From a virus: a stretch of 23,554 nt of DNA. The stretch is from positions 1-23,554 of the IMG/VR virus record IMGVR_UViG_3300020411_000004; one strand, given 5' to 3'. The notes beneath the pieces were generated by a model. The model saw only the letters and a list, made by a program, of their open reading frames with translations. It was not told where the DNA came from and did no database searches. Positions 2,812 to 17,569 of the stretch are shown here, piece by piece. Every line of letters begins with the position of its first letter. The stretch's first letter is position 1. Made by a program: the position numbers and the translations under genes.

Positions 2812-3244
2812 GAGTTACTCAGGAAAATTCCGACCATCAAACAAACATAAGTACAAAGGTGATCACACTAATATTATTTATAGGAGTTTGTGGGAAAAGA
2901 AGTTTATGCATTGGTGTGACCGTAATGTAAACGTATTAGAGTGGGGAAGTGAAGAGATTATTATTCCTTATAGGAGCCCTTTGGACAACAGGACTCACCG
3001 TTATTATCCTGATTTTTACGTTAGGGCACGAACAAAGGATGGAAGAATCGCCAAATCGATCATCGAAATTAAACCAGATGCACAGACTAAACCCCCGAAA
3101 CGTAAATCGCAGAAAGCCAGGACTTTTATAACAGAAGTTAAGACTTGGAATGTAAATAGTGCTAAATGGAGAGCTGCAAGACAGTTTTGTGCACATAAAG
3201 GCATGACATTTATCATACTGACCGAAAAACACTTAAATGTATGA
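2810..3244 (+). CDS. 4: Head completion nuclease gp4 (TnsA-like)
   Basis: 144 aa, near the T4 gp4 length (150 aa). Seen: YRSLWEKKFMHWCD (24-37), IIIPYRSPLDNRTHRYYPDFY (50-70) and IIEIKP (84-89). These give a PD-(D/E)xK nuclease set, E29 / D68 / E86-x-K88, as in the TnsA-like endonuclease fold. Known: T4 gp4 completes DNA-filled heads before tail joining, and nuclease activity has been reported for the family. All catalytic positions look intact here. It is divergent from gene 48, with start codons sharing CATG at 2809-2812. The stop overlaps the next start (ATGA at 3241-3244). Identification is confident from motif order and context. Confidence 0.9.
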   Translation: MSYSGKFRPSNKHKYKGDHTNIIYRSLWEKKFMHWCDRNVNVLEWGSEEIIIPYRSPLDNRTHRYYPDFYVRARTKDGRIAKSIIEIKPDAQTKPPKRKSQKARTFITEVKTWNVNSAKWRAARQFCAHKGMTFIILTEKHLNV

Positions 3245-3720
3245 GCATTTTTACAGACGTTAAAGATCTTGCTGAGGGTAAGGCACAGTCTAAACAATGG
3301 TATAGAGAGCAACTTCAATATGGACTGGAGGCATATGAAGGTGCTTTTACTGTGGGAGATATTATATTTTTCAATTATTCAGCTCAGACACCAGATCTGA
3401 AATTCTGGGATACCTTCCCTATGGTACTAATCACAGATGTGGATTACCAGAAACTTCAATTCTCTGGTGGTAATATGCACTATTTGAGACCTAATAGTAG
3501 ACAGAGTATGGCAAATACCTGGGCTGCTGGTAGTATTTCATATCCCATGCGTTGCCATCATAAATACTTTATGAATAGTGTCACTTCAGCATATAATGTA
3601 CCTTCCGAGGAATTGAAAGACATGACACCACTTCCAGTCGAGCAATTCGTCATTAGACCAAAAGGTCTAGGTCGTACCATGGAAGTACCAAGTAGCATTA
3701 TATGGAGTAGACTCAAATGA
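3241..3720 (+). CDS. Conserved virion-assembly protein, role uncertain
   Basis: A 159-aa protein with no signal peptide or membrane segment. Seen: an N-terminal KQWYREQL helix (about 18-25), a beta-rich middle with VGDIIFFNY (38-46) and FWDTFPMVLITDV (55-67), and GGNMHYLRP (about 76-84). The pattern of an aromatic-Pro-hydrophobic strand followed by a Gly-Gly-N-x-HYL segment resembles marine-phage proteins annotated as DNA end protector (gp2-like). In T4, gene 2 is adjacent to gene 4, which supports that reading, but I cannot confirm it from sequence alone. It overlaps gene 4 by 4 nt and the following gene by 4 nt (ATGA at both ends), so it is translated with the head and tail completion set. 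Confidence 0.88.
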   Translation: MSIFTDVKDLAEGKAQSKQWYREQLQYGLEAYEGAFTVGDIIFFNYSAQTPDLKFWDTFPMVLITDVDYQKLQFSGGNMHYLRPNSRQSMANTWAAGSISYPMRCHHKYFMNSVTSAYNVPSEELKDMTPLPVEQFVIRPKGLGRTMEVPSSIIWSRLK

Positions 3721-4451
3721 GTGCCAATAGTTTTGATATTTTTAAGGATCTGGTAGTTTCTGGTAAGAAGGAACCAGCTAGATCCAACCTGTTTGGTATT
3801 AAGGTATTCCTACCAACCTGTATGCTTGCTAATGATGCAATGACTAGGAAGGATCAAAGGACTTTACAAATATCTAATAATTACCTAGCAGATGCAGTTA
3901 CCGTACCAGGTAAAAGAGCAGATGCTATAGAGCATCCACAAGTTGTTGGTAATAAGTTTAAGTTAGCAAATGGTCAGACACATCAGGATGTGGGAATATC
4001 ATTTGTGATGACTAAGGATGCACAGCATCGTCTATTTTTTGAGAAATGGATGAATTATGCTGCACCAGATCAAGAGAATAGAGCTACATTTTATGATGAG
4101 TATGTAACTAACCTATTAGTAACAAAATGGGAGTTAGGATCACCTGTTAAGTGGGCTGGTATAACTGATAGTGGTACTCCATATACACAGAGACTTAATA
4201 GTGTGACTAGTGTTTGGCAATTCTTTGCTGCGTGGCCTATAGATATGTCACAGTTATCATTTAATAATGGTCCTACACAGTTAGTTAAATATAACGTCAA
4301 ATTTGCTTTCGAGAGATATAGATATGATACAGTCGGTGCTGATGCACTAGGAAATAATACTCCAGACAGGTTTATTAACTCTGTTACTGGTACCCTAGAT
4401 AACCTAGGACTATCTCAACAACAGAGAGATGCAGCCCAGTTTGGTGTCTAA
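3717..4451 (+). CDS. 54: Baseplate tail-tube initiator gp54
   Basis: A 244-aa protein of the tail-tube fold family. Seen: an N-terminal DIFKDLVVSGKKEPARSNLF segment, DAVTVPGKR (about 60-68), a beta-strand block ending VGISFVMTKDAQHRLFFEKW (about 91-110), then a C-terminal YNVKFAFERYRYDTV strand. Tube proteins gp19 and gp54 share this pattern. Position next to 48 and 4 and upstream of gp26 favours gp54 over the gp19 tube itself. Known: gp54 caps the hub with gp48 and nucleates gp19 polymerisation. Shorter than T4 gp54 (320 aa). ATGA overlap with the upstream gene. A late-promoter-like sequence overlaps its stop codon. Confidence 0.78.
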   Translation: MSANSFDIFKDLVVSGKKEPARSNLFGIKVFLPTCMLANDAMTRKDQRTLQISNNYLADAVTVPGKRADAIEHPQVVGNKFKLANGQTHQDVGISFVMTKDAQHRLFFEKWMNYAAPDQENRATFYDEYVTNLLVTKWELGSPVKWAGITDSGTPYTQRLNSVTSVWQFFAAWPIDMSQLSFNNGPTQLVKYNVKFAFERYRYDTVGADALGNNTPDRFINSVTGTLDNLGLSQQQRDAAQFGV

Positions 4452-4476: not shown

Positions 4477-5181
4477 ATGCCATTACCTAAGTTAGCCATA
4501 CCTGAGTATGAAGCGACCTTGCCTGTCACAGGCACAAAAATATCATATAGACCATTCTTAGTTAAGGAAGAGAAACTACTCTATCTTGCTATGGAGTCGC
4601 AAGACAACAAGCAAATGGTCAAAGCAGTGAAGACTATTATTAAAAACTGTACAAACTTAAAGACTAAGGTTGAGGATCTCGCTACTTTCGAGATTGAATA
4701 TATTTTCCTTAAGATTAGATCTGTTGCAGTCGGTGAGACAAGTGAATTTAAAGTCACATGTCCAGATGATGAGAAAACACAAGTTACTGTTACCATACCT
4801 CTTGCAGATGTAGGTTGTAAAGTCCCAGATGATCATGACTCTAAAATACAGTTAGATCAGGAAGTGGGTATTAAGATGAAGTATCCATCATTGGATGTAT
4901 TCATTCAGCAAAACCTATCTGAGAATCCTAATATTGATGATATCTTTGAGTTAGCTGCTGGATGTATTGATCAGGTATATACCTCAGATGAGGTTTATGA
5001 TACTTTTAGTAAGAAAGAAGCACTTGAATTCCTTGAAGATTTGAATGCAGAGCAATTTGCTAAGATTCAGCATTTCTTTGAGACAATGCCTAAACTATCT
5101 TATACACTAGAAGTTTTTAATCCTGAGACTAAAGTTAAGAGTGATTTGGAACTGGAGGGTCTAGCGGCTTTTTTCGAGTAG
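4477..5181 (+). CDS. 26: gp26-type baseplate/tail assembly chaperone
   Basis: A 234-aa protein of the T4 baseplate gp26 family. Seen: N-terminal LPKLAIPEYEATLPVTGTKI (3-22), then YRPFLVKEEKLLYLAME (about 24-40) and a Lys-rich helix. A predicted beta-hairpin with FKVTCPDD follows, then a helical acidic C-terminal half (about 130-225). Known: gp26 is needed for assembly of the T4 baseplate hub and is thought not to be a major virion component. In this window it takes the place that tail assembly chaperones hold upstream of tape-measure genes. Its last codons (GCT TTT TTC GAG TAG) contain a T TTT TTC heptamer in the register for -1 slippage. Slippage would replace the last residue with a 67-residue extension, giving a 300-aa fusion with the next ORF. 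No clear Shine-Dalgarno. Confidence 0.85.
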   Translation: MPLPKLAIPEYEATLPVTGTKISYRPFLVKEEKLLYLAMESQDNKQMVKAVKTIIKNCTNLKTKVEDLATFEIEYIFLKIRSVAVGETSEFKVTCPDDEKTQVTVTIPLADVGCKVPDDHDSKIQLDQEVGIKMKYPSLDVFIQQNLSENPNIDDIFELAAGCIDQVYTSDEVYDTFSKKEALEFLEDLNAEQFAKIQHFFETMPKLSYTLEVFNPETKVKSDLELEGLAAFFE

Positions 5182-5235
5182 CGTTAATGCATGACAGTCT
5201 TGAGAATTACTACAAGACAAACTTCGCATTAATGC
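5169..5235 (+). promoter_or_regulatory. Programmed -1 frameshift site with stem-loop
   Basis: Slippery heptamer T TTT TTC occupies 5169-5175, in the zero frame of gp26 (codons TTT 5170-5172, TTC 5173-5175). A 5-nt spacer (5176-5180) contains the start of the stop codon. A 10-bp stem pairs 5181-5190 (GCGTTAATGC) with 5226-5235 (GCATTAATGC) with one G-U pair. Inside it a 6-bp hairpin pairs 5197-5202 (GTCTTG) with 5213-5218 (CAAGAC). After -1 slippage the ribosome reads CGA GTA GCG TTA ATG with no stop, which is the frame of the 63-codon ORF. The ORF's own ATG (5187-5189) is inside the stem. Layout matches known frameshift signals; occurrence in vivo is inferred. Confidence 0.72.
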
Positions 5236-5378
5236 AACATCACAAATATAGTCTTACTGAATTGGAGAACATGATACCGTGGGAACGTGATGTGTATGTG
5301 AACCTTCTTATTGCTCATATTCAAGAGGAAGAGAGGAGACAGAAGGCAGACGAACAAGCAGGTAGAGTATCACTCTAA
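5187..5378 (+). CDS. Frameshift extension of gp26, or separate 63-aa protein
   Basis: A 63-codon ORF in the -1 frame relative to gp26. Seen: ENYYKTNFALMQHHKYSLTE (6-25), then IPWERDVYVNLLIAHIQEEE, an amphipathic and acidic helix. The WERD-Y-LL motif recurs in short proteins next to baseplate chaperones and in the T extensions of tail assembly chaperones. The annotated ATG lacks a Shine-Dalgarno and is buried in a 10-bp stem, so expression mainly as a C-terminal extension of gp26 (total 300 aa) is the preferred reading. It ends 1 nt into the next start (TAATG). A gp51-like hub catalyst role has been given to neighbours of this type, but I see no direct support here. Confidence 0.8.
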   Translation: MHDSLENYYKTNFALMQHHKYSLTELENMIPWERDVYVNLLIAHIQEEERRQKADEQAGRVSL

Positions 5379-7627
5379 TGATTAGAAGTTACGTTAAAAT
5401 TAAACCTATAAAAGACGATGGTGCCTTTGGAGCAAATTTCAATGAGGTCCGTAAGGGTATCAATCGTACAGGTTCTGTAACTGAAAATATTGGTAATAAT
5501 CTAGTAGAGACTCATAAACTAATTCAATTTGAGAAAGATTGGTTAAGAGATAAGGCAGAGAAGGAAGAGGATGATGAGAAGGATGATGAGAAGGAATCGT
5601 TTCAAGGATTTAAACGGTGGTTTAAGGGATTCCGAGATATGTTCCGTCTCCAGAAGAGAGAGGAAAGTACTGAGGATGAAGAATTAGATAAGATAGAAGA
5701 AGAAGGTGGTAACTTTGGTCAGAAGACAAAGGAGACTGTTAAGAGTGGTCTTGAACTACTAGGTGGTTTCTTAACACCTATTTTTAAATGGGTTGTTACT
5801 ATGGGTGTCCTTAAATGGATGTCCGATCCAGAGAATGCTAAGAAAGCAGAGAAGGTATTCAAACTTATAGGTGCTATTGCTAAATTTGCCTGGAAAATAG
5901 GTAAGTTTGGTGTGGGTCTTATAATGGCAGGACTCACCAAGGTATTTGGTGTCTTTGATGGAGGAAGTACTAGTCCTATTAAGAAAGGATTCAAATTTGT
6001 ATTTGGTGCTTTACAGTTATTTGCAGGTTTTAAAACTCTTCAATATCTTTTAAATCCTCTTAAGGCAGTATCTGATGCAAAGAAATTAACTACTCTCTTC
6101 AATAGTAATGCAGAGAAGGAAGTAGAGTTTAAAAAGAATGAGCAGTGGCGTAAGTTTGGTTATAAGGATAGAGAAACAGGTGCAATCTATACAGAGAAGG
6201 AATATAAAGCACAGAAGAAGTCAGTAGAGAGACAGCAGAAGAAGTTAAGAAAACAGGGTAGAGATCAACAAGCAAAGCAACTTGGTGCTAAGTTTAATAG
6301 TAGAAATAATAATCCTACTAGACTACAACAGGGTAAGAATGTTGGTGGTAAGTTGATGAAACCTGGTGCACAGGGAGGACTTGCCATAGCAGGTGGTCTT
6401 ACTCGTATGGCATCGGGTATTGCAATGGGTGAGGATAAGACTGAAGCAGTCGGTGCAGGTCTTGGTCAAGCAGCAGGTGGTATGTTAGGTGCTGCTGCTG
6501 GTACTGCATTATTAGGTCCATTCCTAGGTCCATTTGCACCTATAGTAGGTAATGCTATTGGTAGTTTCTTAGGTGAGTGGGTAGGTAAGACATTCTTACC
6601 AATGATTAAACCACTATTTGAACCTATTCAGAAAGCATTCCAGATGTGGTGGACAATCATCAAAGGTGTTGCTGATGAGACTGGTATTACAGAGTTCCTT
6701 GGTACATTCTTCAAGTTCCTAGGACAAGTAGGTAAGGTCATGTTTGATATCCTTGGATGGATAATGAAACCTCTGACATGGTTATTAGGTGGTGCAATTA
6801 AACTTATTGGTAAGAGTATAAGTTTTATTATTAGTGCTGCTAAAAATATATTTGCGTTTATGGTTAATCCCATAGGATTCGCATGGAAAATTATAAGGGG
6901 TAAGGATCCTGGTAAGGATGTACAATTAGAGGAGATGTCTAAGGGTGGTGCTTTACAGGCAGCATTCTTATCTGGTTATGCTGAAGGTGGTAAGTATACT
7001 ATGGGATATAGAATGGGGCAGATAACCCCAGATCAATATGTCTATAATTACCAGAAGTTTACCAGTAAGACAGTAGTAAAAGGTGATCAATTAATAGAAC
7101 AATCTAAAGACTTTACTGAGTTGGGTGGATCTATTGAGGTACAAGATTTAATAGATCATAAGGAACAATTATTATCTCATCCTCTATTAAAGGCATTTAA
7201 GATAGCAGATATTATAAACAGGAAGACAGGTTTACCACCAGAGGTATTATTTCCTATCCTTATGGAAAGTGATGCTCAGAAGGCAACTTATAAGAAGATG
7301 GATGCTGCTATTGCTCTTGATGTCAAGAAGATGGAAGCGAAGTTTGGTAAGGGTAAGGGATGGAGTTGGTACGATGAGTCTTTCTCAGAGGGTGGTGAAT
7401 TTAGATCAGGCACATTAAGTGATAGTCAGATATTTGAAATGACTGAGAAGAGAGATGCAATGCATGATCAATTCAAATATAAGAATCAGAGAGATAATGA
7501 TGCAGAGATGATGATGCAAGCACCCATTGTTATTACTAAACAAGTTACAACTCCTGTAATAAATACTAAGAGTAGTGGACACATTATACCTGTAGTCGCT
7601 TCTCCATCACCAATGTTTACCTGTTAA
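5378..7627 (+). CDS. Tape-measure-like tail/hub protein, paralogue 1
   Basis: A 749-aa protein with tape-measure architecture. Seen: a highly charged Glu/Asp/Lys segment (about 55-110), a helical block with WMSDPENAKKAEKVF (147-161) and IGAIAKF, LFAGF (214-218), a Lys/Arg/Gln-rich coiled region (about 250-330), a Gly/Ala-rich hydrophobic segment (about 332-400), then hydrophobic helices to about 505. The C-terminal part has YAEGGKYTMGYRMG and SEGGEF loops. It sits directly after the gp26 frameshift pair, where tape-measure genes lie in other tailed phages. T4 gp29 (590 aa) is the functional counterpart by position and role. The downstream protein is a clear paralogue. Which of the two sets tail length cannot be told from sequence. 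Confidence 0.82.
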   Translation: MIRSYVKIKPIKDDGAFGANFNEVRKGINRTGSVTENIGNNLVETHKLIQFEKDWLRDKAEKEEDDEKDDEKESFQGFKRWFKGFRDMFRLQKREESTEDEELDKIEEEGGNFGQKTKETVKSGLELLGGFLTPIFKWVVTMGVLKWMSDPENAKKAEKVFKLIGAIAKFAWKIGKFGVGLIMAGLTKVFGVFDGGSTSPIKKGFKFVFGALQLFAGFKTLQYLLNPLKAVSDAKKLTTLFNSNAEKEVEFKKNEQWRKFGYKDRETGAIYTEKEYKAQKKSVERQQKKLRKQGRDQQAKQLGAKFNSRNNNPTRLQQGKNVGGKLMKPGAQGGLAIAGGLTRMASGIAMGEDKTEAVGAGLGQAAGGMLGAAAGTALLGPFLGPFAPIVGNAIGSFLGEWVGKTFLPMIKPLFEPIQKAFQMWWTIIKGVADETGITEFLGTFFKFLGQVGKVMFDILGWIMKPLTWLLGGAIKLIGKSISFIISAAKNIFAFMVNPIGFAWKIIRGKDPGKDVQLEEMSKGGALQAAFLSGYAEGGKYTMGYRMGQITPDQYVYNYQKFTSKTVVKGDQLIEQSKDFTELGGSIEVQDLIDHKEQLLSHPLLKAFKIADIINRKTGLPPEVLFPILMESDAQKATYKKMDAAIALDVKKMEAKFGKGKGWSWYDESFSEGGEFRSGTLSDSQIFEMTEKRDAMHDQFKYKNQRDNDAEMMMQAPIVITKQVTTPVINTKSSGHIIPVVASPSPMFTC

Positions 7628-7630
7628 TAG

Positions 7631-9823
7631 ATGGCAGTAAAGGCAGACATAAAGAAACCAGCACTTTATAAGATGATCTCTTATAAGGGTACTACTGGTG
7701 CCAAGAGTTATACTCCTCTAACTGCTGCGAAGAGATTGCGTGAGCATGAGAAGAGTATTGGTACAGGATTCAGTTCTGTAATTGCTGGTCTAAACTCACT
7801 TGGTGCTACTCTTAATAGTATTGCCTTGAATACTCAGGGTCTACTTACCACGTGGCAAGACAGTATTACAACACAGATAAAGGATGCTAATAGGGTAGAG
7901 AAGTTAAAGGCAAAGAATAAGAAGTTACAGGAAAAGAGAGATCGTAAGAAAGAGAAGGAAGAGAAAGATAGGAGAGCATTACTAGCAAGAGAGAAGAGCA
8001 CTAAAGATCCTAAAAAGAAGAAGGTAGTTAAGAATCCTGTTGTAGCAGCAGTTGCTAAACAGAGTGAAGGTTTCTTGAAATGGTTAGGTAAACTGGTAGG
8101 CAGTTTAATTAGTATTGCTATATTGGATTGGGTACGAAAGAATCCAGAGGCAGTAGAGAAACTTGTTAAGACATTAGGTGCTATAGGTAAGTTTATATTT
8201 AAGACTGTTGGATTTCTGGCAGGAATATCGTTAAGTGGTCTGGTAGATTTTCTTGAGAATCCTATAAGTCTCAAAGGAGTCTTTGGTATATTCAAGTTTC
8301 TAATTGGTGCTGTACCATTATTTGCAGGGTTTGCGATATTAAAGAATCCTGTTGGTGCTATTAAAATTATTGGTAAGGTAGTTGGTGGAATAATACAGTC
8401 TATTAAACGACTGTTTGGATTGAATAGTAAGGCAGATAAATTTAAACAATTTAAACTGAAGAAGTTAGGGAAGGGAGGTAATTTCTTCCAGAGCAAGACA
8501 GGTAAAATTGCTATGGGTCTGGGTGCTGGTGCTACAGCAGCTACAGCAGTATTAGCTGGAGGTGGATCAGGTGCTGAGGCAGCAGGTGCAGGTGTTGGTG
8601 CTGCTGGTGGTCAGATGCTTGGTGCCAAACTAGGTGCTGCTACTGGTATTCCAGGTATGGGTGCTGTCGGTGGTATGGTCGGTAGCATGGCAGGTGGTGC
8701 TGTCGGTAAGGCAATAGGAGGATTGATTGAACCTATTGTTGAACCATTTAAAGAATGGTTTGGTATGGTTAGTAAGGTATTCAATGATGTATTAAAGGAT
8801 ATTAAAGAACCATTAGAGCAATTCTTTAGTGCTCTTGGTGCATTCATGAGTAAGATACTGAAAGTGGTAGAACCTCATCTACCTATGATTACTAAGATAA
8901 TCAGTACTGGTATTCAGATTGTATTTGCTCCCTTATTCTTAGGTATTAAAGCATTAACTGCGGTATTAAAATTATTCACAGGTGGTGAAGGTAAAGGTGA
9001 AGAGAAGACTGTAGAAGTACCAGAAGACGCAGTTGAAACTCCTAGTGGTGGTAATGAGACGAAGACTCTATTGATTGCTGGTATGCCTGTAGGTGAAAAA
9101 CTCACCAAGGAACAGTTGGCGATCATTGGAATGGCTCGTCAGATGGATGAGAGTAATTTCAAGAGGTATCCACCAAACGTACAGCAGATGTACGAAGAGC
9201 AATCTGCTGGACAGCAACCAACAGAAGAGAAGTCAAGAGGTGGTTGGATTAAAGGTCCACAGTCAGGATATAAAGTATCATTAGATGGTAGGAAACCATC
9301 GTTTATTGGGCATGGCACTGAGTGGGTAGGTAGGAAAGCAGGTGGTAAAGCATTTGTGGTACCATTTGATACTCCTGCAACTAGAACTGACAGAGGTCTC
9401 ACCAATAGGAGATTGGGTGAAGCTGCCAGAGGTGGATACTCATTACCTAGGGGATTTGCTGGTGGTGGAGAATTAAAAGGATGGAAGAGATGGTTAGCAG
9501 GTGCTGCTGATCAAATGACTGGTGGTTTCTGGGATTTTGATAAAAAAGGACATTCAATCTATCAAGCATCTGGTCAGTTGCAGAAGGCAGGTGAAATCAT
9601 TGAGAATGTCAAGCAACAGATGACATCTAATAAGGCAGAGAAGTTATCACAACCATCTGTAACTCAGATTAATGATTCAAACCCAGCAGTAGTTGTTGGA
9701 GAGGAAGGTGATGATATGCCAATTCTTATTCCTGGTGAGAAGGAATTAGATGCTGATAAGTATATTAAACCTAAGTATGGTTTGATTGCTGAGTTTTTAA
9801 CTGATCCTGTGGAGTTTATGTAA
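7631..9823 (+). CDS. Tape-measure-like tail/hub protein, paralogue 2
   Basis: A 730-aa protein sharing the order of segments with its upstream neighbour. Seen: a strongly basic/acidic coiled coil (about 85-130), a W-V-R-K-N-P-E-A-V-E-K block (167-177) with LGAIGKF (182-188), PLFAGFAIL (229-237), a Lys-rich linker (about 265-292), and a long Gly/Ala-rich hydrophobic stretch (about 292-364) followed by EPIVEPFKEWFG. The C-terminal half has SRGGWIKGPQSGYKVSLDG and FAGGGELKGW, Gly-Gly loops typical of tape measures, and ends in an acidic strand-rich region. The start is 3 nt after the upstream stop, and the gp27-like ATG follows its stop with no gap. Likely role: second tape measure, hub core or membrane-penetrating tail component. 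Confidence 0.82.
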   Translation: MAVKADIKKPALYKMISYKGTTGAKSYTPLTAAKRLREHEKSIGTGFSSVIAGLNSLGATLNSIALNTQGLLTTWQDSITTQIKDANRVEKLKAKNKKLQEKRDRKKEKEEKDRRALLAREKSTKDPKKKKVVKNPVVAAVAKQSEGFLKWLGKLVGSLISIAILDWVRKNPEAVEKLVKTLGAIGKFIFKTVGFLAGISLSGLVDFLENPISLKGVFGIFKFLIGAVPLFAGFAILKNPVGAIKIIGKVVGGIIQSIKRLFGLNSKADKFKQFKLKKLGKGGNFFQSKTGKIAMGLGAGATAATAVLAGGGSGAEAAGAGVGAAGGQMLGAKLGAATGIPGMGAVGGMVGSMAGGAVGKAIGGLIEPIVEPFKEWFGMVSKVFNDVLKDIKEPLEQFFSALGAFMSKILKVVEPHLPMITKIISTGIQIVFAPLFLGIKALTAVLKLFTGGEGKGEEKTVEVPEDAVETPSGGNETKTLLIAGMPVGEKLTKEQLAIIGMARQMDESNFKRYPPNVQQMYEEQSAGQQPTEEKSRGGWIKGPQSGYKVSLDGRKPSFIGHGTEWVGRKAGGKAFVVPFDTPATRTDRGLTNRRLGEAARGGYSLPRGFAGGGELKGWKRWLAGAADQMTGGFWDFDKKGHSIYQASGQLQKAGEIIENVKQQMTSNKAEKLSQPSVTQINDSNPAVVVGEEGDDMPILIPGEKELDADKYIKPKYGLIAEFLTDPVEFM

Positions 9824-14893: not shown

Positions 14894-16090
14894 ATGTCGT
14901 TAGACGAAACGCTTAGTTCCTTAGCGAACCCAGATATTCAACCTGAATACAAAAGGAACCTAATCAGCCTTGTTGACTTAGCAAAGGCACAATTTGATGA
15001 AGAAACTATCCAGAAGTATAGAGATCTGGGAGTTGCAAAGAATAAGTTAACAGGTAACCCAGAGAAACCAATTAAATATCCTTTCTGGGAGACAGTAGTA
15101 CAAGATTTTGAAGTAGATTCACCTACACCTGCGTACATTCCCGTACATGCATGTGTAGGTGATGCTTCGTACAATAGAACTGTTGAGATTAATTTCAAAT
15201 CAATAGAAAACAACCTCTATTATAGCAAGGGCTTCTCATACAGTGCCTGCGGTACAATAGAGGTTAATTATGTACGTGAGACTGGTCAATTCATTGTTAC
15301 TAAAGGACAGCACCGTGTGATAGCAGCATGGTTAGCACTAGGTGAAGGTGCTTCTATACCTGCTAGTGTTAAAGTATGTGGTGAATACTCTGAAGAGGAG
15401 CAGATTAAAGCAGAAGCACATGATCATCATGTGGATGCACAAAAAGTGACAAGACAGAAGGCACATCAATCTGGTCTCAGTGGATTCATTGCTGGTGATA
15501 AGGAAGAGGTGAAGTATACAGAATGGATACTATCACGAGGTATCGGTATTAAGGGTAAGATGCATCTCTTCCCTAACCTTAAATACCCTAGGATATGTGA
15601 GACACCTTGGGCAGTTAGATCTGCTATCCAGATCAATGAAGCTAATTGCTCACAGGCATTGAAACTTCTTAATAGGTATCTACCTGACTCAGATACAATC
15701 ATCAATGGTAAGTCTATTAAGGCAGTCACACAATTTCTAACACTTCTCCAAGAGAAGATTGAAAAGACTGCTAACATCAACAACATCACACCAGATCAGT
15801 TTGTTGATGATGTATTCTGCTATATCTTTAAAGGTAGGAAGATCAAGACTGCTGCATGGTTGAAAGGATCCAATGCACTTAGAGGAGAGAATATCATCAT
15901 TCCTTTAGGACGTTTGATTAGATTCACCAACTCATACTGCCAAGAGAATGACATTAGACTACCAGATGGTAGGAAGACTGAGGATAGTGTATGGTGCTCA
16001 GTCAATGAGATATTCTGGGTTGACTTCCTTAACAAGACCACACCCAAGGAATTACATGGTAGTGTCAACGCTATCGTGACCGAGTGTTAA
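14894..16090 (+). CDS. ParB-like domain protein, function unknown
   Basis: A 398-aa protein. Residues 119-160 resemble the ParB/Srx N-terminal fold: a strand CGTIEVNYV, a turn, then FIVTKGQHRVIAAWLALG (133-150) with the G-x-x-R box (G138, R141), then IPASVKV. The rest is helical with no recognised DNA-binding or partner domain. Cys-rich positions and HDHH (176-179) are seen. Known: ParB-like folds include CTPases, nucleases and sulfiredoxin; no catalytic set can be assigned here. It has the clearest translation start of the window (AGGAG, 7-nt spacing) and a consensus host promoter, so it is probably expressed early. A role in takeover of the host is inference. Confidence 0.85.
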   Translation: MSLDETLSSLANPDIQPEYKRNLISLVDLAKAQFDEETIQKYRDLGVAKNKLTGNPEKPIKYPFWETVVQDFEVDSPTPAYIPVHACVGDASYNRTVEINFKSIENNLYYSKGFSYSACGTIEVNYVRETGQFIVTKGQHRVIAAWLALGEGASIPASVKVCGEYSEEEQIKAEAHDHHVDAQKVTRQKAHQSGLSGFIAGDKEEVKYTEWILSRGIGIKGKMHLFPNLKYPRICETPWAVRSAIQINEANCSQALKLLNRYLPDSDTIINGKSIKAVTQFLTLLQEKIEKTANINNITPDQFVDDVFCYIFKGRKIKTAAWLKGSNALRGENIIIPLGRLIRFTNSYCQENDIRLPDGRKTEDSVWCSVNEIFWVDFLNKTTPKELHGSVNAIVTEC

Positions 16091-16607: not shown

Positions 16608-16874
16608 ATGAAAGGACGTATCACTCGCAATTACTGTTATTTGGATGACAAAATTGTGGATATGTGGTATATTCAAGGTATCCCTTTCACGTTTGAGGAA
16701 TTACCTCAACCAATGGCAGAATTAGATGAGGTTGTGGAAGAAGCAGAAGATACCACAGGTTATACTATGGAAGACATGATGACCTGGTCTGACTATCTGA
16801 TAGCAGAGGAGTGCCATCCTTTACTATTTCCTATTACTGAATTTATTGAAAACTACGAGGAAGTTCCTGAATGA
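16608..16874 (+). CDS. Small acidic protein, unknown
   Basis: An 88-aa protein. The N-terminus is basic (MKGRITRNYCYLDDK), followed by an aromatic segment MWYIQGIPFTFEELPQP (19-35). The rest is strongly acidic with many Glu and Asp. No membrane helix or signal peptide. It begins 1 nt after the previous stop, and its stop overlaps the talC start (ATGA at 16871-16874), so it is translated together with talC. Function not recognised. Confidence 0.78.
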   Translation: MKGRITRNYCYLDDKIVDMWYIQGIPFTFEELPQPMAELDEVVEEAEDTTGYTMEDMMTWSDYLIAEECHPLLFPITEFIENYEEVPE

Positions 16875-17569
16875 AAATCTTTTTAGATACTGCTGATGTA
16901 CCAACTATTCTCAAACATTTTGAGACTGGGTTGATCGATGGTATCACAACAAATCCATCTCTTATTAAGAAGAGTGGTCGAGATCCATTAGATGTCTATC
17001 GTGAACTTGTAATGGCAGGTGTCCCTGACATTAGTATGGAAGTCGTAGAAGACATGGAGTTTGAAGCAAGAAGACTTGCTGCTGAATTTGGCGATGTTTG
17101 TACTGTTAAGGTACCATGCACACCAGAAGGTTTAAATGTATGTAAAAAATTATCTGATGATGGAGTTAGAGTAAATGTTACGCTTATATTCAATGCTGCT
17201 CAGGCTATCTTATCTGCAAAGGCAGGTGCTACGTACGTCTCTCCTTTTATTGGGAGGTTGGATGACAATAGCGTTGCTGGGTTGGAGGTTATCCGATCAA
17301 TAAGTGAAGTGTTTAGAGTGCAACAAGTCAAGAAGACACAGATACTTGCTGCATCTATTCGTGATGTATATAAAGTAACTAGAGCATTCTGGAATGGTGC
17401 ACATATAGTTACCATGCCACCTAAAATCTTTGAAGGAATGTATAAGCATGTCCTTACAGACAAAGGTTTAGAAATTTTTGATGCTGACTATCAATCAACT
17501 AAGAAAGCAGTATTCAATCCACCAGTATTTGCAACTGGAAAGCATGGTAAAGATCTTGATTCTTTTTAG
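16871..17569 (+). CDS. talC: Transaldolase TalC
   Basis: A 232-aa protein of the short TalC/fructose-6-phosphate aldolase-type family. Seen: MKIFLDTAD (1-9, with D6), GITTNPSLIKKSG (24-36), SMEV (55-58), TVKVPCTPEGL (78-88) with the Schiff-base lysine K80, AGATYVSPFIGRLDD, ILAASIRD and ITMPP-type strands. All expected barrel positions are present, so the enzyme should be active. Known: cyanophage TalC (about 215-230 aa) is an auxiliary metabolic gene for the non-oxidative pentose phosphate pathway. With CP12 it redirects carbon from the Calvin cycle to NADPH and nucleotide precursors. Start chosen for the ATGA overlap and exact family N-terminus. Transcription probably starts at 16096. Confidence 0.95.
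   Translation: MKIFLDTADVPTILKHFETGLIDGITTNPSLIKKSGRDPLDVYRELVMAGVPDISMEVVEDMEFEARRLAAEFGDVCTVKVPCTPEGLNVCKKLSDDGVRVNVTLIFNAAQAILSAKAGATYVSPFIGRLDDNSVAGLEVIRSISEVFRVQQVKKTQILAASIRDVYKVTRAFWNGAHIVTMPPKIFEGMYKHVLTDKGLEIFDADYQSTKKAVFNPPVFATGKHGKDLDSF

Follow-up and report, generated by a model that had tools for sequence, protein, structure and literature searches.

In phage lambda, a short and a long tail assembly chaperone, gpG and gpGT, are produced by -1 slippage of the ribosome near the end of the first open reading frame (ORF), which is placed between the genes for the tail tube and the tape measure. The slippery heptamer of lambda is G GGA AAG, unlike the T TTT TTC considered here. The -1 frameshift of gpG/gpGT was reportedly described by Xu, Hendrix and Duda in 2004. 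Both gp26 and gp51 of T4 (NC_000866) carry the domain PF12322, to which gp51 adds a phrog_634 domain, whereas genes 26 and 51 are separate and lie on opposite strands, so that a frameshift between them is impossible. Frameshifting is said, by Vladimirov and co-workers in 2022, to be kept in several T4-like groups, T4 itself using the separate genes 26 and 51. According to the accessible part of PMC12846349, polyT -1 signals are known in the genes of the short tail assembly chaperone (TAC-N) of T4-like phages. The same part of that article gives a further parallel in the Vandenendeviridae and Andersonviridae, where an invariant T-rich motif stands at the TAC-N end and all genomes examined there have an open -1 frame, although the motif is GTTTTT and the phage families are different ones. 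In certain T4-like phages the arrangement is instead a short gene plus a separate fused one, as stated in the available portion of PMC10885494. Here we describe the junction of gp26 and gp51 in a virus record of 23,554 bases (IMG/VR record IMGVR_UViG_3300020411_000004), referred to as the window in its whole length. Its relatives point to a T4-like cyanophage, and the closest DNA matches over the gp26 region are P-RSM6, P-TIM40 and S-SZBM1 (~70% identity). Comparison of this junction with its homologs indicates that a -1 programmed frameshift at the end of gp26 very probably yields a long chaperone, gp26-51.

The gp26 ORF occupies positions 4477–5181 on the plus strand, as do the other junction features and the two large ORFs after gp51, and its zero-frame product has 234 aa. 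Its 3′ end reads GCT TTT TTC GAG TAG, which places the heptamer T TTT TTC (5169–5175) in the gp26 register, one sense codon before the stop, and a 5-nt spacer (5176–5180) follows. The -1 frame, in which the previous stop codon lies at 5142, is open from 5145 to a stop ending at 5378. Slippage would join 233 residues of gp26 to an extension of 67 codons plus stop (5175–5378), giving a fusion of 300 aa. A preliminary description of the window had proposed the heptamer, the spacer, the open frame and the two product lengths, and all of them agree with our direct reading. The predicted junction-spanning peptide of the fusion is AAFFRVALMHDSLENYYK, with AAFFRVALM as the junction residues. A +1 frameshift was considered and rejected, as the +1 frame of the window is closed by a stop codon 13 nt beyond where the gp26 stop begins. 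Of 6959 codon positions in the 22 window ORFs, one carries T TTT TTN in register, namely 5169–5175, and sites of the form XXXYYYZ total 17. Inside the bodies of gp26 from 136 non-redundant loci, T TTT TTN stands in register at 8 of 28,424 positions. The heptamer at the gp26 end is thus correctly observed, and it lies far beyond chance.

An inspection of related junctions, in line with the check that the preliminary description had suggested, revealed the same arrangement almost everywhere. The loci were fetched by similarity to the gp26 protein and not by the heptamer. T4 (L093), the copy of the window (L094) and L187, which comes from the same record as L085, were dropped, and 4 truncated loci also fell out, so that 262 loci remained. 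In 283 of 287 junctions (260/262 loci, 16/17 further contigs and 7/8 further named phages), T TTT TTN starts in register 7–31 nt ahead of the gp26 stop and the -1 frame is open; these junctions range from cyanophages to phages of Vibrio, Aeromonas and Pseudomonas. The frame was scored open as far as the available sequence reaches, and 12 of the 260 heptamer loci and 4 of the 16 contigs run out of sequence before the -1 stop is reached. The first 84 loci and the window have T TTT TTC in 85 out of 85 cases. The four misses are the phages Cygsa01, K362 and K452, weighed below, and the contig L285, in which gp26 loses its frame before the junction is reached; at the junction itself stands a T-run followed by TAA. 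The frame break (3000–3200) lies near a T-run and could be an indel or an assembly error.

As the loci are related, the counts above are not independent, and 136 clusters at <85% identity were therefore used for RNA stability and as the non-redundant set. The distance from the start of the heptamer to the stop is 7, 10, 13 or 31 nt in 45, 182, 4 and 29 of the 260 loci, and 10 nt in 107, 7 nt in 20, 31 nt in 7 and 13 nt in 2 of the 136. The identity of the stop codon varies in this non-redundant set, and so does the last base of the heptamer (C, T, A or G in 111, 16, 8 and 1 loci); in nine of them the zero-frame residue is Leu and the slippery site is still kept. The variable last base and the variable distance to the stop argue that selection acts on the slippery site and not on a Phe-Phe pair in the protein. 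Treating the 136 clusters as independent gives a chance of 10^-29 for TTT encoding the first Phe in every one of them, and of 10^-33 for the preceding codon always ending in T. Kinship makes these figures too small; with 67 clusters at <75% identity both chances are still ~10^-17.

Downstream of the heptamer lies a putative stimulatory RNA (5181–5235). It consists of an outer stem (5181–5190/5226–5235) of 10 pairs including one G-U and, nested within it, an inner hairpin of 6 pairs (5197–5202/5213–5218). The predicted fold of 5176–5245 holds both stems at -21.7 kcal/mol (z -5.2), and 0 of 200 shuffles are as stable. A search of Rfam at gathering scores gave no match within the window. Among the relatives, 255 of the 260 heptamer loci have enough flank for the analyses of RNA stability and start codons. 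In a 54-nt stretch from the third codon after the start of the slip site, the mean z relative to synonymous shuffles is -2.16 (n = 136), versus -0.49 for stretches of gp26 (n = 272) and -0.17 for later stretches of gp51 (n = 136). All pairs of the inner hairpin can form in 13 of the 21 loci whose protein identity is ≥55%. It shows double-sided changes at 5 of its 6 pairs with 85.7% of cells paired. For both stems together, 76.2% of cells pair versus 28–44% for slid versions. Of 500 shuffles, 2 reach the observed cells with double-sided changes, but 79 reach the number of pairs with such changes.

The exact 10-bp stem of the window is not conserved in all relatives. In 106 loci below 55% identity, a mean of 4.25 of its 10 pairs can form, compared with 2.3–3.9 for slid stems in all loci tested. 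Other lineages have other stems. P-SSM2-like loci have an 11-bp stem in 32 cases, with U-A, A-U and G-C at one pair; these rows were picked for having the stem, and only their covariation counts as evidence. A 5-bp hairpin of the GGUCC type in 24 loci and a stem of the GCCUC type in 45 were likewise found by searching for those stems. Extra predicted structure downstream of the heptamer is thus general across lineages, and its shape is not.

The protein domains on the two sides of the junction belong to known families. gp26 matches Pfam T4_baseplate (PF12322, E 2.6e-66) and phrog_150. From 5178 on, 66 residues fall under phrog_634 ('baseplate hub assembly catalyst', E 5.8e-32), which is gp51, and the -1 frame extension also matches positions 237–276 of phrog_150 (E 1.5e-5). 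The small ORF that a gene finder would call with its own ATG (63 aa, 5187–5378), left unnamed in the preliminary description, is therefore gp51, a name already present in GenBank records of relatives. In T4, gp51 is a PF12322 domain followed by a phrog_634 domain in one in-frame ORF, which makes two PF12322 genes in that phage, whereas 12 other named phages have one each. phrog_634 is matched in 10 of these 12, and not in Mendera and K362, though an open -1 frame follows their gp26. The second gene of T4 and the frameshift elsewhere look like two routes to the same pair of products.

An AlphaFold2 model of gp26 (pLDDT 85.8) was calculated from 52 rows, including P0001, the other 51 being drawn from 125 usable loci. 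Of 998 re-aligned PDB chains, the best two against this model, both within residues 1–87, are 2ob9, the tail assembly chaperone of HK97 (Z 7.5, rmsd 4.1, 83 aligned, over residues 1–85), and YqbN, 3klu (Z 6.9, rmsd 4.0, 85 aligned); the next has Z 5.1. YqbN is presumably a prophage relative of tail assembly chaperones. The gp26 sequence itself has no meaningful match in the PDB (best E 0.11). The gp51 domain model, calculated from 37 rows including P0002 with the other 36 from 123 loci, has three predicted helices. The gp26 model is thus suggestive of the HK97 chaperone fold. This resemblance and the in-frame fusion in T4 gp51 support the assignment of gp26 as the short and gp26-51 as the long chaperone, sharing an N-terminus. 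In the BFVD collection, the 182-aa viral protein A0A8S0HX62 resembles the two models alike, at 45% identity for gp26 and 56% for gp51, and may be a gp26–gp51 fusion in one record.

Three other explanations were weighed. In one of them, gp51 is a separate gene translated by termination and reinitiation at an ATG beside the gp26 stop, and the T-run is incidental. Several observations weigh against frameshifting here, and most of them suit reinitiation. The gp51 ATG of the window sits 8 nt after the first base of the gp26 stop, a -1 frame ATG lies 5, 8 or 14 nt after the stop in 70 of the 85 nearest loci, and gp51 is called as a separate gene in deposited records. Moreover, the distant phages Cygsa01, K362 and K452 (L088, L092 and L291) are without the heptamer though their -1 frame is open, and their gp51 ATG overlaps the gp26 stop as TAATG or nearly so. 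Cygsa01 and K362 carry a single gp26 copy, a scan for relatives of the K362 gp26 found none, and Bakedbeans (L289), with a gp51 similar to that of these three phages, retains T TTT TTC. The RNA adds two further points: Melnitz-like phages show a weak structure signal (mean z -0.77, n = 28), and the outer stem is complete in only 7 of the 21 close loci and does not extend beyond the nearest lineage. Reinitiation nevertheless fails as the sole explanation. In 156 of 255 loci, the -1 frame is free of ATG, GTG and TTG from the previous -1 stop, upstream of the heptamer, up to the place of a His codon which 236 of the 255 conserve; in 101 there is none through codon 16. A separate gp51 start therefore cannot explain the conservation, and conserved residues upstream of any start could only be made by a ribosome arriving from gp26. 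Before the His, substitutions fall on -1 frame codon positions 1, 2 and 3 at 34, 20 and 46%, close to the 33, 20 and 47% of the gp26 tail in its own frame. Reinitiation would also leave the heptamer kept in 283 of 287 junctions without any reason, and gp51 is truncated to 48 and 44 aa in two deposited records; the P-TIM40 and S-RSM4 records have it cut, beginning 50 nt after the gp26 stop. We therefore consider reinitiation as a full account very unlikely, while an ATG soon after the stop in the window and its near relatives makes an additional free gp51 possible. Still less credible, to the point of being negligible, is a homopolymer sequencing or assembly error that broke what is really one ORF. 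The break does lie at a run of six T and the T4 fusion is unbroken, but the identical arrangement recurs in contigs and in isolate genomes such as P-SSM2 and S-RSM4 among the 283 junctions, and neither the stop codon nor its spacing from the heptamer is constant.

The remaining explanation accepts the frameshift and holds that gp26 and gp51 serve baseplate hub assembly and not the chaperoning of a tape measure. It agrees with the GenBank names 'baseplate hub subunit' and 'baseplate hub assembly catalyst' and with the downstream ORFs, which are not clear tape-measure proteins. The structural comparison also leaves room for it. A Z of 7.5 is below 8, in a range where chance arrangements are common, and Foldseek of the gp26 model against the PDB gave no significant match, with the HK97 chaperone third (E 0.54). 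The gp51 domain model matched no solved chaperone in the PDB among 3 chains compared (best Z 3.0). On the other side stand the chaperone-like fold of gp26, suggestive as it is, and the short and long product pair which, together with the position after the tail tube gene (phrog_45), fits the chaperone pattern. A published reassignment for T4-like phages, as far as the accessible part of the article goes (Vladimirov et al. 2022), points the same way. A baseplate role appears unlikely to us, though less so than the two explanations above. The frameshift with a role like that of gpG/gpGT, as first proposed for the window, is supported by the homologs, the missing start codons and the T4 gp51 fusion, and less firmly by the fold of gp26.

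Under the frameshift reading, the ORF at 5187–5378 is probably not an independent gene; its start codon is not kept in many relatives. The absence of a Shine-Dalgarno motif before it, raised earlier as an argument, is uninformative, because a simple motif test assigns one to 5 of the 20 ORFs tested in the window, and gp26 too is without it. The small gp51 'gene' listed for these phages is almost certainly no gene in its own right but the latter half of a chaperone, which makes the annotations and start-codon calls at this place wrong in the records examined. gp51 is not called in the records of the Aeromonas phages AsFcp_4, P19 and avDM6, and a joined gp26–gp51 gene is absent from all 19 annotated records examined besides T4.

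The mechanism that we consider very probable is as follows. gp26 would be the TAC-N, and structured mRNA just ahead would hold up some ribosomes at the last gp26 codons. A fraction of them would move back by one base at T TTT TTC, where both tRNA-Phe re-pair with TTT, and would bypass the gp26 stop, read the -1 frame and add the 67-residue gp51 part (TAC-C), yielding a 300-aa long form (TAC-NC). By analogy with lambda gpG/gpGT, both forms might chaperone the tape measure and help start the assembly of the tail tube. We infer the occurrence of slippage, its rate and its role in tail assembly. A broader reading, possible in our view though we stop short of favoring it, is that the heptamer has been frozen across T4-like phages while the stimulatory RNA was repeatedly replaced, by unrelated stems at one and the same downstream place in different lineages. 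In that case two chaperone forms would be reached by three interchangeable routes, namely a frameshift with lineage-specific stems, a stop–start overlap (Cygsa01, K362 and K452) and a second gene (T4).

The junction would provide a natural frameshift signal that is very well conserved, with a stimulatory RNA that changes from lineage to lineage, and would link a puzzling 'baseplate hub' protein pair of common marine phages to lambda-like tail assembly chaperones. The novelty of the frameshift itself is doubtful, since the tail assembly chaperones of T4-like phages are the subject of Vladimirov, Gautam and Davidson (2022, Virology 566:9-15), going by the part of that article that is accessible. 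The principle is in print, and this gene pair probably is too. In the accessible parts of the literature on frameshifting and tail assembly chaperones of cyanophages or Synechococcus phages, nothing was found on this site, nor in those of PMC11821841, PMC8785237, PMC12671138, PMC13222765 and PMC11131426. The present comparison contributes how widely the site is conserved, how often start codons are missing, how the stems turn over and which phages are exceptions.

The tail tube gene (phrog_45) is the ORF at 3717–4451, upstream of gp26. The preliminary description had placed the junction upstream of tape-measure genes; two large candidates do follow, but their identity is weakly shown, with best PHROG matches labeled 'endolysin'. 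The 749-aa ORF after gp51 (5378–7627) matches phrog_90 (E 1.6e-32) and tape-measure PHROGs with a best E of 2.1e-6, and the 730-aa ORF (7631–9823) matches phrog_1200 (E 1.1e-74) and the tape-measure phrog_167 (E 3e-10). Both are candidates for tape-measure or tail-lysin-like proteins, and the endolysin and tape-measure PHROG sets that these adjoining ORFs (5378–9823) share overlap, which suggests related tape-measure/lysin genes. Further downstream, a 398-aa ORF (14894–16090) matches phrog_15918 (function unknown, E 3.1e-94) and has a marginal ParB-like match (E 0.00048). A transaldolase-like gene (16871–17569; phrog_440, E 2.3e-86) stands amid tail and head genes, transaldolase being a common auxiliary metabolic gene of cyanophages.
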